Positions 4,538 through 64,000 of a stretch of 64,000 bases of DNA are shown one piece after another. Origin of the DNA: Qipengyuania sp. (GTDB taxonomy: Bacteria > Pseudomonadota > Alphaproteobacteria > Sphingomonadales > Sphingomonadaceae); assembly GCA_019745075.1 (NCBI GenBank), contig JAIETR010000004.1, forward strand, positions 1 to 64,000, read 5' to 3'. How positions within the stretch are numbered: position 1 is the first letter of the stretch; every line of letters starts with the position of its first letter. The notes below the pieces were generated by a model. That model did no database searches and was not told the origin of the DNA. It was given only the letters and a program-made list of their open reading frames with translations. The position numbers and the translations under genes were made by a program.

Positions 4538-4554
4538 GCGCTCGCGAATCAAAG

Positions 4555-4672
4555 CCCTCCCCCGCTCGGGGGAGGGTTGGTTGGGGGCATCCCACGCCCG
4601 ATGGATCGGACGCGCGCATGCGGCGCGCTCCCCCTCCCCAGCCCCTCCCCGTGGGGAGGGGAGTTGGGCGGA
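4555..4672. repeat. Palindromic intergenic repeat, family C (ccctcccc.../...ggggaggg)
   Basis: ccctcccccgctcgggggagggttgg ... ctccccctccccagcccctccccgtggggagggg; related copies elsewhere in the window. Confidence 0.7.
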
Positions 4673-4889
4673 TACACACCCACCCGTGGATGACACCACC
4701 GGGGGGTTTTGCGAAACTTTGCCCGCCTCATGCGAGGGCCTGACCGAAGCGAACGCCGTCAGATCAAGCCAACCGGCGCGCGCGTCCACTGCGTAGTGCG
4801 GCGGCGTTGGTGGGCGAGCGCCCCCTGGGCGGCAATTTCATTTCTATTTTTCTGGAAATATGTTTGACATCCACGCGGCGCGCCTTCAT

Positions 4890-4905
4890 TTCGATAGTTA
4901 TCGAA
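4890..4905. promoter_or_regulatory. Putative ArsR operator upstream of the ars cassette
   Basis: Perfect inverted repeat TTCGATA-GT-TATCGAA just upstream of the arsR ATG; TTGACA at 4864-4869. Confidence 0.5.
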
Positions 4906-4920
4906 TCGAAGGGCGCGACC

Positions 4921-5262
4921 ATGAATGCTGAATCGGCCATCGAGGCCCTGGGAGCCTTGGCGCACGACCATCGTCTGGCGGCGTTCCGGCTGTTGGTTCA
5001 GGCCGGAGAGCGAGGCATGGCCGCCGGAGCGATCGCGACGGTTCTGGGGCTGCCCAACAGTTCGCTGTCCTTTCACCTCGCCCAGCTTCGCGGCGCCGGG
5101 CTCATCGTTCAGCAACGGCAGCACAGATCGTTGATCTATCGCGCCAACTATCCGGCGATGAACGCCCTCTTGGGATACCTCACCGAGAATTGCTGTGCCG
5201 GTTCCGACTGCACGGCCGAGGCTCTTTGCCCGCCCTCCGATAACGAAAGGAAGTCCGCATGA
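4921..5262 (+). CDS. arsR: ArsR-family transcriptional repressor
   Basis: MNAESAIEALGALAHDHRLAAFRLLVQAGERGMAAGAIATVLGLPNSSLSFHLAQLRGAGL winged HTH; heads an arsenic gene cluster. Confidence 0.88.
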   Translation: MNAESAIEALGALAHDHRLAAFRLLVQAGERGMAAGAIATVLGLPNSSLSFHLAQLRGAGLIVQQRQHRSLIYRANYPAMNALLGYLTENCCAGSDCTAEALCPPSDNERKSA

Positions 5263-5708
5263 AGCGCCTGCACGTCCATGTCGGGGTGAACAACCTCGAC
5301 CAGTCGATCGGTTTCTACTCCACGCTGTTCGCGGCCGCGCCCAGCGCGATCGAGGACGATTACGCCAAGTGGATGCTCGACGATCCGCGCGTCAACTTCG
5401 CCATCTCCTCGGGCAACCATGCGCGCAAGGGCATCGAGCACCTCGGCATCCAGGTCGAGAACGGTGAGGAACTCGCGGAGGTTTATCGTCGCCTGAAAGC
5501 CGCCGACCGGCCGGTGCTCGAAGAAGGCGCCACCACCTGCTGCTATGCGAAGTCGGAAAAGAGCTGGATCGCCGATCCCGACGGCGTGGTCTGGGAAGCG
5601 TTCCTGACGAATGGCGAAGCAACCGTCTATGGCGACAGCCCCGCCCCCGACACAATCGGCGCGCCCTCCGCCGAGGTGAAGTGTTGCGCCCCGGCGGGTG
5701 TCCAATGA
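5259..5708 (+). CDS. ArsI/CadI-family metalloenzyme (glyoxalase/dioxygenase superfamily)
   Basis: MKRLHVHVGVNNLDQSIGFYSTLFAAAPSAIEDDYAKWMLDDPRVNFAIS; Cys pairs TTCCYAKSEKSW and EVKCCAP; ars context. Confidence 0.85.
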   Translation: MKRLHVHVGVNNLDQSIGFYSTLFAAAPSAIEDDYAKWMLDDPRVNFAISSGNHARKGIEHLGIQVENGEELAEVYRRLKAADRPVLEEGATTCCYAKSEKSWIADPDGVVWEAFLTNGEATVYGDSPAPDTIGAPSAEVKCCAPAGVQ

Positions 5709-6226
5709 GCAAGCCGCGCACGGTGCTGTTCCTGTGCACCGGCAATTCGGCCCGCTCGATCCTGGCCGAGGCGCTGCTGAACCGCATGGGCGAAGGCCGG
5801 TTCATCGCCCATTCGGCCGGCAGCCAGCCGAAGGGCGAGCCGCATCCGATGGCGCTGGAGGTTCTGCGCGGGCACGGATTCGAGACCGCGGGGCTGCGCT
5901 CGAAAAGCTGGCACGAGTTCGCCGGACCCGATGCCCCGCCGATCGACCTCGTCATCACGGTATGCGACAACGCGGCGGGCGAAAGCTGCCCGGTATGGCC
6001 CGGCCATCCGGTGGCCGCCCATTGGGGGATCGAGGATCCGGCGGCGGTCGAAGGCGACCGTCAGGCTGACGCCTTCGAACGCGCGCTGCACTACCTCCGC
6101 AATCGCATCCTGCTGCTGCTTGCGCTCCCGCTCGACAGCATCGACGAACTGGCCCTGCGCGCGAGCCTGCGCGAGATCGGGGCCAGCGAAGGCGCCACAG
6201 GCGGCGAGCAGGCCGCCGATGCCTGA
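5705..6226 (+). CDS. arsC: Arsenate reductase, LMW protein tyrosine phosphatase type
   Basis: VLFLCTGNSARS P-loop (CTGNSAR), TVCDNAAGESCPVWPG. Confidence 0.9.
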   Translation: MSKPRTVLFLCTGNSARSILAEALLNRMGEGRFIAHSAGSQPKGEPHPMALEVLRGHGFETAGLRSKSWHEFAGPDAPPIDLVITVCDNAAGESCPVWPGHPVAAHWGIEDPAAVEGDRQADAFERALHYLRNRILLLLALPLDSIDELALRASLREIGASEGATGGEQAADA

Positions 6227-6902
6227 TTCCCGGCCGCTGGCGCGGCGGCTGGCGGCGGAAGGGCTCGGGTCGTTCTTCCTGTTCGCCTGCGTGATCGGTT
6301 CGGGCATCATGGCCGCCAATCTGGCGCAGGGTAACGACGCCGTGGCCCTGCTCGGCATCACGCTGGCGACCGCTGCGATCCTGTTCGTTCTGATAACGAT
6401 ATTCGGGCCGATTTCGGGAGCCCATCTCAATCCCGCCGTAAGCCTGGTGGCCGCGTCCCGCGGCGATATCGCCTGGCGGGACGCAGCCGGATACATCGCG
6501 ATGCAGCTGAGCTGCGGCATCCTGGGCGCCTGAGCCGCGCATCTGATGTTCGATCTGCCCACGCTGCAGCTGTCGGAGAGGGCTCGCACGGGCCTGGGCC
6601 AATGGACGGGCGAGGCCATCGCCACCTTCGGGCTGATCCTGACCATAATCGGCACCGTCCGCTTTCGGGCGGCATGGGTGCCGGCGTCGGTCGCGCTCTA
6701 TATCGCCGCGGCCTATTGGTTCACATCCTCCACCAGCTTCGCCAATCCGGCGATCACGGTGGCGCGCGGCCTCACCGACAGCTTTTCCGGAATAGCGCCG
6801 GCCGATGTTCCCGGCTTCATCGCCGCACAGTTGATCGGCGCCGCCGGGGCTGCCTGGGTGGCGCGATGGCTCTTCGCGCCGGACTCCGGGCCGCCCGGCT
6901 AG
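6219..6902 (+). pseudogene. MIP/aquaporin-type (AqpS-like) arsenite channel interrupted by one in-frame TGA
   Basis: Both halves in the same frame: ...GAHLNPAVSLVAA...QLSCGILGA[TGA]AAHLMFDLPTLQL...SFANPAITVARGLTDSF; both NPA boxes intact; the stop falls where MIP proteins carry Trp. Confidence 0.8.
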
Positions 6903-6944
6903 GCAGCGGGGGATCGCCGCCGTGGCGCCTGGGGCAGCGGGCCT

Positions 6945-7151
6945 TGTTGCAATCCCGTGACCCTCCGCTATCCCGCCCGGCACCGAATCCCACCGCCACA
7001 GGACAGCGTCCCGCATGAAACTCATGGCCGCCAACGCCAACCTGCCGCTGGCCCGCGCGATCGCGCAATATCTCGAGCTGCCGCTGGTCGATGCGGCGGT
7101 GCGGCGCTTCGCCGACGAGGAAATCTTCGTCGAGATCCACGAGAACGTGCG
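6945..7151 (+). repeat. Direct repeat copy 1: prs upstream region plus first 137 nt of prs (truncated)
   Basis: Reads identical to 7912-8118; carries ATG at 7015 and [46 protein letters not shown], then diverges and stops at 7194. Confidence 0.95.
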
Positions 7152-7190
7152 TGGCGAGAGTAGTCGTTCGGCGAGGGTGTACCCAACCCG

Positions 7191-7577
7191 CTAGGCCAAG
7201 ACGCTGGCCACATCGGTTGTGCGGAAATCGGCACCGACGAAGAGCAGTGGGCACCGGCGTTCGCGCGCGAGTTCGTAAGCGAAGCAGTCGCCAAAGTTGA
7301 GCGCGGCGGGATGCACGCCCTTGCCCCATCGGGAATAGGCCTCGGCCACACGGCGCGCGGATGCCGCCGTCAGCTGCACGACTTCAACTCCCAGACCCTC
7401 GACGAGCTCGGCGAGCTCCTCGGCCACGCCGCGCCGCGCCGATACGATCAGGGCTTCCGCCAGCGTGCCGGCCGACATGACGATCTCATCCTCTCCCTCC
7501 AGCGCGGCGATGCAGGTGTCCGCGTCGGCTTCGTCGAGAAGGATCGCCATGAGCGCCGAGGTATCGACGGCGATCAT
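7191..7577 (-). CDS. vapC: PIN-domain ribonuclease toxin, VapC family
   Basis: [28 protein letters not shown] ... [33 protein letters not shown] acidic residues and [10 protein letters not shown] motif. Confidence 0.93.
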
Positions 7578-7831
7578 CCAGGCAGGCCGTCTGCATCATA
7601 GAGTTCGTCCTGACTGCGCGCCGCGTCCGATCCCGGCACGGCCTTCGTGACGGCGGCGGCCCGGAGCTTCCTCATAAGGGTCCCGCGCGTCTTTCGGTCG
7701 ATAACCGGTTTGATCGCCACCAGGCGAACGGCCGGATGCCCATGACGCGTAAGCACGACCTCGTCGCCGCCTTCCGCGCGCCGCACGAGTTCGGTCAACT
7801 GGCTCTTTGCATCGGAAACCGAAATACGCAT
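7574..7831 (-). CDS. vapB: Phd/YefM/VapB-type antitoxin
   Basis: MRISVSDAKSQLTELVRRAEGGDEVVLTRHGHPAVRLVAI; overlaps the vapC start by 4 nt. Confidence 0.9.
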   Translation of the reverse strand: MRISVSDAKSQLTELVRRAEGGDEVVLTRHGHPAVRLVAIKPVIDRKTRGTLMRKLRAAAVTKAVPGSDAARSQDELYDADGLPG

Positions 7832-7911
7832 CGCGCGCTCCTCGATCAAGTTTCGTGGAGATTGTAGACCACTCGTTGGTCCAAAGCAAGGGCGCCGCCG
7901 CTCTCCCCTTC

Positions 7912-8118
7912 TGTTGCAATCCCGTGACCCTCCGCTATCCCGCCCGGCACCGAATCCCACCGCCACAGGACAGCGTCCCGCATGAAACTCATGGCCGCCA
8001 ACGCCAACCTGCCGCTGGCCCGCGCGATCGCGCAATATCTCGAGCTGCCGCTGGTCGATGCGGCGGTGCGGCGCTTCGCCGACGAGGAAATCTTCGTCGA
8101 GATCCACGAGAACGTGCG
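7912..8118 (+). repeat. Direct repeat copy 2: 5' region of the intact prs
   Basis: Same 207 nt as 6945-7151. Confidence 0.95.
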
Positions 8119-8917
8119 CGGGCAGGACATGTTCGTGATCCAGTCGACGAGCTATCCGGCCAACGACAACCTCATGGAGCTGCTGATCTGCATCGATGCG
8201 CTGCGCCGCGCCTCGGCCAAGCGGATCACCGCGGTGATGCCCTATATGGGCTATGCGCGGCAGGACCGGAAGCCGGGGCCGCGCACGCCGATCTCGGCCA
8301 AGCTGGTCGCCAACCTGATCACCGAGGCCGGCGCCGACCGGGTGCTCGCGGTCGATCTCCACGCCGGACAGATCCAGGGCTTCTTCGATATCCCTACCGA
8401 CAACCTCTATGCCGCGCCGGTCATGGCCGCCGATATCCAGGCGCGCTATGCGGGCAAGGAGCTGATGGTGGTCAGCCCCGACGTCGGCGGCGTGGTGCGC
8501 GCGCGCGCGCTCGCCAAGCGGCTCGACAACGCCCCGCTCGCTATCGTCGACAAGCGCCGCGACCGGCCCGGCGAGAGCGAGGTCATGAACATCATCGGCG
8601 AGGTGCGCGGGCGGCACTGCATCCTGATCGACGACATCATCGATTCGGGCGGCACGCTGTGCAACGCGGCGCAGGCGCTGATGGACGCGGGCGCGGAGAG
8701 CGTGGCGGCCTATATCACCCACGGCGTGCTGTCGGGCGGCGCGGTGGCGCGCGTCGATGCCAGCGCCTTGAAGGAGCTGGTGATCACCGATTCGATCCGC
8801 CCGACAGATGCGGCGGTGGATTCGAAACGCATCCGCATCCTCACCATCGCCCCGCTGATCGGCGAGGCGGTGCGGCGCATCGCGGACGAGAGCTCGGTGT
8901 CGAGCCTGTTCGACTGA
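7982..8917 (+). CDS. prs: Ribose-phosphate pyrophosphokinase
   Basis: Full-length 311 aa; [53 protein letters not shown] motif. Confidence 0.97.
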
Positions 8918-15696: not shown

Positions 15697-15715
15697 CCTT
15701 TGGGGACCACCCCCC

Positions 15716-15780
15716 GTTCGCCTCGAGCGCAGTCGAGAGGCGTTGGCGCGAGGTGTCTCGACTTCGCTCGACACGAACGG
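15716..15780. repeat. Palindromic repeat, family A (cgttcgtgtcgagcgcagtcgagac)
   Basis: cgttcgcctcgagcgcagtcgagaggcg...cgaggtgtctcgacttcgctcgacacgaacgg in the pheS-pheT gap. Confidence 0.8.
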
Positions 15781-15790
15781 AGTTGGTGCT

Positions 15791-19140: not shown

Positions 19141-19206
19141 GCCGTTCGTGTCGAGCGCAGTCGAGACACCGGCGCGACGTGTCTCGACTGCGCTCGACAC
19201 GAACGG
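19141..19206. repeat. Palindromic repeat, family A
   Basis: gccgttcgtgtcgagcgcagtcgagacaccggcgcgacgtgtctcgactgcgctcgacacgaacgg, near-perfect inverted repeat. Confidence 0.88.
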
Positions 19207-19228
19207 ATTTGGATACGGACACATTGAA

Positions 19229-60966: not shown

Positions 60967-61848
60967 ATGACCACCCCCGAGATTCACGCACACTTCGACG
61001 AGCCGACCAACACGGTGAGTTACCTTGTGGTCGATCCCGCAACGCTGCGCGCCGCGGTCATCGATCCGGTGCTCGATTTCGATCTGGCGAGCGGGGAAGC
61101 CGACGTGCGCTCCGCCGAGGCGATCTTGGCCGCGGCGCGCGAACGGGGCGCTGCGATCGACTGGGTGCTCGAAACCCATGCCCATGCCGATCACCTCTCG
61201 GCCGCGCCCTTTATCAAGGCCGAAACCGGAGCGAAGATCGGAATCGGCGCGCATATCCGCGACGTGCAGAAGATCTTCCGCCCGATCTTCGCCGCCGACG
61301 ACATCAAGACCGACGGCTCCGATTTCGACCGGCTGTTCGAGGATGGCGAGCGGTTCGGGATCGGATCGCTGGAGGTCGAGGTTCTCCATGTTCCCGGCCA
61401 CACCCCGGCCGACGTCGCCTATCGCATCGGCGACGCCGTTTTCGTCGGCGACACGCTGTTCATGCCCGATTACGGGACCGCGCGGGCCGATTTTCCGGGC
61501 GGCGATGCGCGCCAGCTCTACCGCTCGATCCGCAGGCTGTTGAGCCTGCCGCCCGAGACCCGGCTGTTCATGTGCCACGACTACAAGGCGCCGGGCCGCG
61601 ACAGCTACGCCTGGGAGACGACCGTCGCCGAGCAGCGCGCCGCCAGCGTCCATGTGCGCGATGGCATCGGCGAGGACGAGTTCGTCGCCATGCGCGAGGC
61701 CCGCGACGGCGCCCTGGCGGTGCCCCGGCTCCTCCTCCCCGCGGTCCAGGTCAACATCCGCGCCGGCAACCTCCCGCCGGCCGAAGCGAATGGTGTCAGC
61801 TATCTGCTGATTCCGGTGAAGCCGGTGCGCCGGGCGGTGGCGCCCTAG
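60967..61848 (+). CDS. MBL-fold persulfide dioxygenase-like hydrolase (Blh/ETHE1-like)
   Basis: ETHAHADHLSAAPFIKAETGAKIGIG, HVPGHTPADVAYRIGDAVFVGDTLFMPDYGTARADFPGGDARQLYRSI. Confidence 0.92.
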   Translation: MTTPEIHAHFDEPTNTVSYLVVDPATLRAAVIDPVLDFDLASGEADVRSAEAILAAARERGAAIDWVLETHAHADHLSAAPFIKAETGAKIGIGAHIRDVQKIFRPIFAADDIKTDGSDFDRLFEDGERFGIGSLEVEVLHVPGHTPADVAYRIGDAVFVGDTLFMPDYGTARADFPGGDARQLYRSIRRLLSLPPETRLFMCHDYKAPGRDSYAWETTVAEQRAASVHVRDGIGEDEFVAMREARDGALAVPRLLLPAVQVNIRAGNLPPAEANGVSYLLIPVKPVRRAVAP

Positions 61849-61970
61849 ACAATCCCCACCGCCTTGCCCGCCGCCTCGAAAATGCCGAGGATGGTCTCGA
61901 CCTCCTCCCCGGTGTGCTCGGCGCAGAGCGAGCATCTGAGCAGCGTCATATTCGCCGGCGTCGCGGGCGG
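61846..61970 (-). pseudogene. Truncated 3' end of serine palmitoyltransferase (duplicate)
   Basis: Minus-strand PPATPANMTLLRCSLCAEHTGEEVETILGIFEAAGKAVGIV-stop; nearly identical to the spt C-terminus at 63061-63186. Confidence 0.9.
61851..61970 (-). repeat. Direct repeat copy 1 (spt 3' end, about 120 nt)
   Basis: Aligns by eye to 63067-63186 with about 5 mismatches. Confidence 0.9.
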
Positions 61971-61998
61971 CGGGCCGAATGGCGCGCGGTCGACGGGG

Positions 61999-63012
61999 TC
62001 ATCGCCATCGACCGACGGCCGGGCCGCGCTGGTCCTGCCAGGCTTGCCAGTGGAGCTCGAGTTCGGCCGGGATATTCCGTTCAAATTCCGCATCGAGCGG
62101 ATAGTGGGGCATTGCTTCGGCGACGGCATCCAGCACCCCCATCCCTTGCTCGCGATCCTTGCGGCGCTTGAACGGATTCCGTTTCGCCTGATCCGAGAGC
62201 CACAGCTTGTGCAGCGCGAACCAGCGCGGGTCAGGCGCGACAATTCGCGCGGCGGTGGCGTCGCGGCAGGCGACGACCTGTTCGACCGGCCGCCCGAGCA
62301 ATAGCCATTCCTGCTCGGGCAGCGGGATCGGGTGAGGCTTGTCCAAGCGGCCGAGCGCTTCGGCACGCGAAGGGGCGACCAGCAGTTCCACTTCGTAGGA
62401 AGCCGCATTGCGGGCCTGGAAGCTACGCTCGGTGTTGACCGCGAAGGTCGGGTCGACGGCTTTGAGCATGTCCCAAACCGGTGCGCCGGCCGAGCTCTCG
62501 GTTCCTGACCACGCCAGATCGAAATCCTCGGTTTCATCGGATAGGCCGAGGCGCGCAACCGTCTCATAGGCGTACGCCGGCAAGGCGTTCGTGCCCACCA
62601 CCAACAGCTGGCCGTCGAGCAAGCCACGGACATCCGCTTCGCGAAGGATTGGCCCGGCCGCGCTCGCCAGCATCGGCACGCGCAGCGCGCGCGCCAGCCG
62701 CGCAGCTTCTTTCATCGCGGCACGGGCGCGCTCCAGCCGGTCCTTCAGCGCCGCCTTGTCACCGCGATAGGATTCCAGTCGCCTCGCCCTCTCCGCGTCC
62801 CACCGCCCGAGCGTCGTGCCGTTGCCCGAGCGATCGAAAATCTCGTAAAGATATTCGTACTGCCCGACCCGCTTGCGCCGCAGGTCATAGGGCAGTGCGC
62901 GCATCGCGCGCTGCGCGTCGCGCCACACCTCGTAGCGCTGCCGCAAATTGACCAGCGCGCGGGCCTGTTCGTCGGTGAAGGGGTGCAGCGCCATGCCCGA
63001 TTTATCCCACAA
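61999..63012 (-). CDS. GSU2403-like nucleotidyltransferase-fold protein
   Basis: LLDGQLLVVGTNALPAYAYETVARLGLSDETEDFDLAWSG ... YEVELLVAPSR ... FALHKLWLSDQAKRNPFKRRKDREQG: NTase-fold G-T-N / D-x-D pattern. Confidence 0.82.
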   Translation of the reverse strand: MWDKSGMALHPFTDEQARALVNLRQRYEVWRDAQRAMRALPYDLRRKRVGQYEYLYEIFDRSGNGTTLGRWDAERARRLESYRGDKAALKDRLERARAAMKEAARLARALRVPMLASAAGPILREADVRGLLDGQLLVVGTNALPAYAYETVARLGLSDETEDFDLAWSGTESSAGAPVWDMLKAVDPTFAVNTERSFQARNAASYEVELLVAPSRAEALGRLDKPHPIPLPEQEWLLLGRPVEQVVACRDATAARIVAPDPRWFALHKLWLSDQAKRNPFKRRKDREQGMGVLDAVAEAMPHYPLDAEFERNIPAELELHWQAWQDQRGPAVGRWR

Positions 63013-63060
63013 TTCTGCGAATCACGCAAAATGAAGGATAACATCTTCGAAAACAGTCGA

Positions 63061-64000
63061 TTATATAATCCCCACCGCCTTGCCCGCCGCCTCGAAAATC
63101 CCGAGGATGGTCTGGACCTCCTCCCCGGTGTGCTCGGCGCAGAGCGAGCATCTGAGCAGCGTCATATTGGCGGGGGTCGCGGGCGGGCGAGCGAGGTTGA
63201 CGTAGAGGCCGCCCTCGATCAGCGCCTCCCACATCGCGGCGCCGCGCTCCAGGTCCGGCATGATCACCGCGACGATGGCGCTCTGCGGCTCCTCGGTGCC
63301 GAGCTGGAAGCCGAGCGCCTTGAGCCCGGCGTGGAGCGTCTTCGAATTCTCCCACAGATGCGCGCGCTTGTTCGAGCCGTGCATCAGCTTGCGGATCGAG
63401 GTCGCGGCGGTCGCGACCACGCTCGGCGGCAGGCTGGCGGTGAAGACATAGGGCCGGCACACCAGCCGCAGGATCTCGAACTTGGGGTGGTTGGAGACGC
63501 AGAAGCCGCCCACCGTGCCGACGCTCTTGGAGAAGGTGCCGATCACGAAATCGACGTCGGCGAGGCAGTCCTGGTCCTCGGCCACGCCGCGGCCGTGGTG
63601 GCCGATGAAGCCCATCGAATGCGCCTCGTCGACCAGCACCATCGCGCCGTGCTTCTTCGCGACCGCGACCATCTCCTTCAGCGGCGCGATGTCGCCGAGC
63701 ATCGAATAGACGCCCTCGAGGATCACCAGCTTGCCCGCGCCATCGGGAATGCGGCGCAGGCGTTTTTCCATCGCCTCGATGTCGTTGTGCTTGAACGGCA
63801 CGATCTCGGCGTCGCCCAATTTGCAGCCGTCCCAGATGCTGGCGTGGCTGTCGATGTCGAGGACGATGTAATCGCCCTTGCCCGCGATCGTGCTGATGAT
63901 GCCGAGATTGGCCTGGTAGCCGGTCGAGAACACCATGGCGTGATCCATGGCGTAGAACTCGCACAGGGCCTTCTCGACCTCCTTGTGCCCCTGGTAGGTG
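63061..64000 (-). CDS. spt: Serine palmitoyltransferase (5' end outside the window)
   Basis: FVIGTFSKSVGTVGGFCVSNHPKFEILRLVCRPYVFTASLPPSVVATAATSIRKLM; LVDEAHSMGFIGHHGRGV; recalls sphingomonad SPT rather than ALAS. Confidence 0.85.
   Translation of the reverse strand, partial: TYQGHKEVEKALCEFYAMDHAMVFSTGYQANLGIISTIAGKGDYIVLDIDSHASIWDGCKLGDAEIVPFKHNDIEAMEKRLRRIPDGAGKLVILEGVYSMLGDIAPLKEMVAVAKKHGAMVLVDEAHSMGFIGHHGRGVAEDQDCLADVDFVIGTFSKSVGTVGGFCVSNHPKFEILRLVCRPYVFTASLPPSVVATAATSIRKLMHGSNKRAHLWENSKTLHAGLKALGFQLGTEEPQSAIVAVIMPDLERGAAMWEALIEGGLYVNLARPPATPANMTLLRCSLCAEHTGEEVQTILGIFEAAGKAVGII
63067..63186 (-). repeat. Direct repeat copy 2 (3' end of intact spt)
   Basis: See 61851-61970. Confidence 0.9.

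Follow-up and report, generated by a model that had tools for sequence, protein, structure and literature searches.

The window analysed here, a stretch of 64,000 nucleotides from Qipengyuania sp., carries a toxin-antitoxin (TA) operon lodged between two copies of the 5' end of prs. Residues 6945-7151 and 7912-8118, both read on the plus strand, are identical at 207 of 207 nt and mismatch at once beyond either edge; extending the alignment to 210 nt brings in one mismatch. The chance origin of an exact repeat of this length is far beyond expectation. The duplicated unit comprises 137 nt of coding sequence from the start of prs and the 70 nt upstream, which include the core promoter. Copy 1 runs into an ORF of 59 aa; only copy 2 leads into intact prs (7982..8917, plus strand), which encodes a ribose-phosphate diphosphokinase (PRPP synthetase) of 311 aa (NF002320, E=7.6e-145). 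A preliminary description, made by eye, had reported both the exactness of the repeat and the continuation of copy 2 alone into the full gene, and the alignment confirms it on both counts.

Between the copies lie 760 nt (7152-7911) that consist essentially of the TA operon alone, with the region upstream of its genes. Both genes are on the minus strand: the predicted antitoxin (7574..7831; 85 aa) belongs to the Phd/YefM family (PF02604, E=5.2e-10; TIGR01552), and the predicted toxin (7191..7577; 128 aa) is a VapC-type PIN-domain protein (PF01850, E=5.4e-15). The toxin gene follows the antitoxin gene and overlaps it by a few bases, the arrangement that defines VapBC operons. The domain matches thus bear out the self-contained vapB-vapC pair proposed earlier. 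The insert contains neither a recombinase gene nor a terminal inverted repeat, the features by which a transposon or integrative element would be recognized; here too the preliminary description, which had listed no integrase, transposase, or inverted repeat, was accurate. Reading by eye suggests a possible vapBC promoter (TTGCTT-17-TACAAT; 7861..7889, minus strand) and a candidate operator, the imperfect palindrome AGACCACTCGTTGGTCC (7866-7882); a scan for the strict sigma-70 consensus called no promoter, including at 7861..7889.

The left edge of the duplication coincides with the start of the −35-like element of the prs promoter. In 40 relatives a conserved promoter block (TGTTGC, 17 nt, and a CTAGGC-like hexamer) begins at precisely the first base of the duplication (7912 in copy 2), so the intact prs retains its core promoter only. 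This is what selection on an essential gene would demand. The left flank of copy 1 (CGGGCCT/TGTTGC, the slash marking the edge) is similar to the native flank (CGGGCT/TGTTGC) of the nearest relative, L032. Copy 1 therefore keeps the old left flank, and the joint to the left of copy 2 is the new one. The earlier view that intact prs keeps its own upstream region consequently needs dividing: the core promoter was carried over, but the ancestral sequence farther upstream stayed with the truncated copy. The copies themselves, being identical, are uninformative as to which is native. Gene conversion had been suggested as the keeper of their identity; it was considered as a cause and set aside, being unneeded and without evidence. 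Recombination between the copies is predicted to remove 967 nt and leave an identical prs ORF, the precise restoration foreseen from the sequence at the outset.

The ancestral locus and the source of the module

Empty sites were sought for prs in about 100 genomes, and for thiC, rpoD, and the SDR-cysH pair (see below) in genus relatives. The preliminary description had proposed to look for such sites in relatives, and no second prs 5' end turned up at any of the approximately 100 loci; in particular, a doubled 5' end in a relative that lacks vapBC, which would have spoken against the insertion, was not found among them. The proposal that an addiction module entered recently without loss of prs is thereby supported.

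The usual order in the genus and among its neighbours is glpX, a gap of 90-400 nt, and prs, sometimes with other inserts. In the window the two genes are separated by an ars operon (arsR, arsI, arsC, and an aquaporin gene); in an Erythrobacteraceae metagenome-assembled genome (L036) that operon lies immediately upstream of prs, which is present there as one copy. The glpX-prs interval (4538-7981) is variable: besides the ars operon, which the window shares with L036, it contains an OmpA-family gene in L032 and, in members of the genus, further inserts that reach about 1.5 kb. The aquaporin gene contains an in-frame TGA at 6531-6533, where L036 has a region with a TGG codon (GVWTAHLMF); it is either a pseudogene or the product of a sequencing error.

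The VapC of the prs locus is missing from 60 other genomes of the genus. In various forms, it occurs in 45 of 401 genomes of the family, and homologues 60-72% identical are found on alphaproteobacterial plasmids. A search of phages and plasmids for a donor returned matches in that same range and none above 72% identity, which leaves microhomology at the junctions unreadable. Homologous vapC loci in other genera, 29 in all, show no flank repeat at E<=1e-8 (one shows a weak repeat at 5e-8). The scar is therefore not a trait of this particular VapC family.

Recurrence of the scar in the same genome

A repeat scan covering 1.98 of the 3.02 Mb of the source genome revealed at least six further TA operons, each flanked on one side by an intact core gene and on the other by a truncated copy of that gene's end. 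In these cases it is the 3' end that is duplicated: rpoD with MazEF; thiC with HigBA; an aldehyde dehydrogenase (ALDH) gene and, at lower identity, cobT, each with ParDE; and cysH and bioB, each with BrnTA. Pfam matches support both genes in the ALDH ParDE pair and in each BrnTA pair, and the toxin alone in the MazF and HigB pairs. At cobT, the toxin figures among the matches to the ParE family, and the antitoxin was read by eye. The duplication varies from case to case (about 52-310 nt), and the inserts are bare operons, of 539-646 nt in the six further cases and 539-760 nt when prs is included. The copies in these six are 58-310 bp long and 72-93% identical. The prs insertion is thus one of a series of TA insertions that share the same scar, and the mode of insertion is recurrent.

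The same scar also holds cargo other than TA operons. Small genes lie in it at an SDR gene, pdhC, and mce. A genus relative (G004) has the SDR gene and cysH adjacent, about 26 nt apart, and about 3 kb of inserts separate them here; at L159 (10620-14193), gene-end duplications of SDR and cysH, adjacent genes in relatives, stand in tandem with an MFS gene between. The window itself contains a second example (61846-63186), in which a nucleotidyltransferase-like gene (61999..63012, minus strand; 337 aa; PF12281, E=2.4e-31) separates the intact 3' end of an aminotransferase-like gene from a truncated copy of that end. The intact gene (63061..64000, minus strand) encodes a PLP enzyme resembling the alpha-oxoamine synthases (PF00155, E=2.5e-45), and its ORF is still open at the end of the window. 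The truncated copy (61851..61970, minus strand) is 120 nt long and 95.8% identical to 63067-63186.

Several other direct repeats, on contigs C14, C57, C25 (at its start), and C5, were set aside as dispersed intergenic or protein-domain repeats. A repeat of 73 nt within the window (15714-15786 and 19142-19212), present in both orientations, probably is a dispersed intergenic palindromic element. On contig C26 of the source genome (26452-26953), two copies of an intergenic stretch, 73% identical, flank a small GIY-YIG gene. In a control, 400 kb of a genus relative (G012), no gene-end repeats were found.

TA loci carry the scar in excess. For toxin loci of five Pfam families, and counting repeats within 800 nt at E<=1e-8, a flank repeat was found at 6 of 18 TA loci versus 14 of 1500 random positions (p=4e-8, in a test devised after the pattern had been noticed). 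With the index locus left out, the count is 5 of 17 (p about 1e-6). Such a repeat is absent from 11 of the 18 sampled loci. The genome is also rich in these toxins, with 27 from the five families, whereas 60 genus members have about one per genome; of the 27, three are BrnT, which occurs nowhere else in the genus.

Identity between copies ranges from 100% (prs) to 72% (cobT), a range indicating that the process acted repeatedly. This spread is what would be expected of events differing in age. At thiC, private changes fall mostly in the truncated copy (17 versus 2 sites), a pattern that fits the predicted decay of that copy after duplication. Comparison with relatives reveals no clear one-sided decay in the rpoD and cysH copies. 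Sorted by codon position, the differences between copies show a third-position excess, which is not decisive.

Origin of the duplications and relation to known systems

Together, these observations make it likely that the prs locus records a recent insertion with long target duplication, and that the same genome took in at least six other TA operons likewise, at the ends of core genes and over a long time. A bare TA operon, some 0.76 kb long, would have inserted into the 5' region of prs and doubled 207 nt there, leaving one copy of prs complete behind its own core promoter. Presumably the duplication arises at insertion; capture of a TA fragment during fill-in of a staggered break with far-separated nicks, template switching, or one-sided recombination could provide the molecular step. 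The exact repeat includes the fast-evolving upstream part, which argues that the cell's own target was duplicated rather than acquired from a divergent donor. Survivors would be only those events that leave the essential gene complete, and hence 5' cases would have to carry the promoter. The truncated copy would decay afterwards. Addiction modules kill cells that lose them (post-segregational killing); since this is well established, it may be that addiction keeps the module from being lost by recombination between the repeats.

The closest competing explanation, which we regard as improbable, is one-sided homologous recombination (homology-facilitated illegitimate recombination, HFIR). Here the incoming DNA derives from a related strain in which the TA operon already lies beside the same gene: homology joins one end, an illegitimate joint forms at the other, and the gene end is doubled. 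Natural competence in bacteria and conjugation in E. coli are both settings in which HFIR has been documented (PMC3240628), and the final structure that it yields is the same. Moreover, the rpoD copies look mosaic, and the differences between the cysH copies all occur as alleles in relatives. Yet the prs copies are identical even across the poorly conserved 70 nt upstream, so that only the same strain could have served as donor. HFIR also requires a donor with the same neighbouring gene, and no relative was found with any of these TA operons beside the gene concerned. Finally, the duplications (50-310 nt or so) are shorter than the joints that unrestricted HFIR predicts.

Two other explanations are very unlikely. 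The source is a draft genome (93.8% complete, 82 contigs) and the prs repeat is exact, so the prs duplication, taken alone, could be an artefact of assembly or binning that joined two strain variants. Against this, a length of 207 nt does not match the usual k-mers; the junction, at prs codon 46, does not fall on shared sequence; and in at least six sister TA cases the copies have diverged (72-93%), which one misassembled repeat would not produce. The loci might instead be remnants of site-specific islands that inserted at gene ends with long att homology and have since shrunk to the TA operon. Duplication of a gene end beside the intact gene is indeed typical of islands, as in e14, which inserts in icd with long att homology. 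Here, though, seven different target genes share no common core, and the inserts are merely 539-760 nt, with no trace of an integrase.

Conceivably, an as yet undescribed and possibly toxin-linked insertion process carries bare TA operons from one gene end to another in this lineage, duplicating 50-310 bp of the target each time and independent of transposases and integrases; we offer this only tentatively.

The present cases bear on the movement of small chromosomal TA modules that lack a mobile element, and they suggest that TA pairs are able to spread without known jumping-gene machinery. At least seven TA operons lie in datable scars (at rpoD, prs, thiC, bioB, cysH, cobT, and ALDH), providing a set in which to measure insertion, excision, and decay. 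A limited search of the open-access literature turned up no account of TA modules in scars of this kind.

As a type II VapBC system the module itself is ordinary: gene order, overlap, and both Pfam domains (Phd/YefM antitoxin and PIN toxin) are as usual, and the genomic setting alone is unusual. The nearest parallel to that setting comes from restriction-modification systems, for which insertion with long target duplication was described by Nobusato et al. (2000, Gene 259:99, as cited in PMC3031569 and PMC1643837) and, according to the accounts in PMC3031569, PMC1643837, and PMC3874152, by Furuta et al. (2010); these target duplications are on the order of 100 bp (PMC3874152). Shared features are an addiction-type unit, no transposase, direct repeats of variable length derived from the target, and an empty site in relatives. 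What differs here is the cargo, type II TA operons from several families; the nature of the repeats, which are core-gene ends; and the occurrence of many cases in a single alphaproteobacterial genome. Since the flanking target repeats are long and vary from case to case, as in those insertions, but the cargo is not a restriction-modification system, the locus is classed as a variant of insertion with long target duplication. It would extend the restriction-modification mode of mobility to TA modules, a link that fits the post-segregational killing shared by both.
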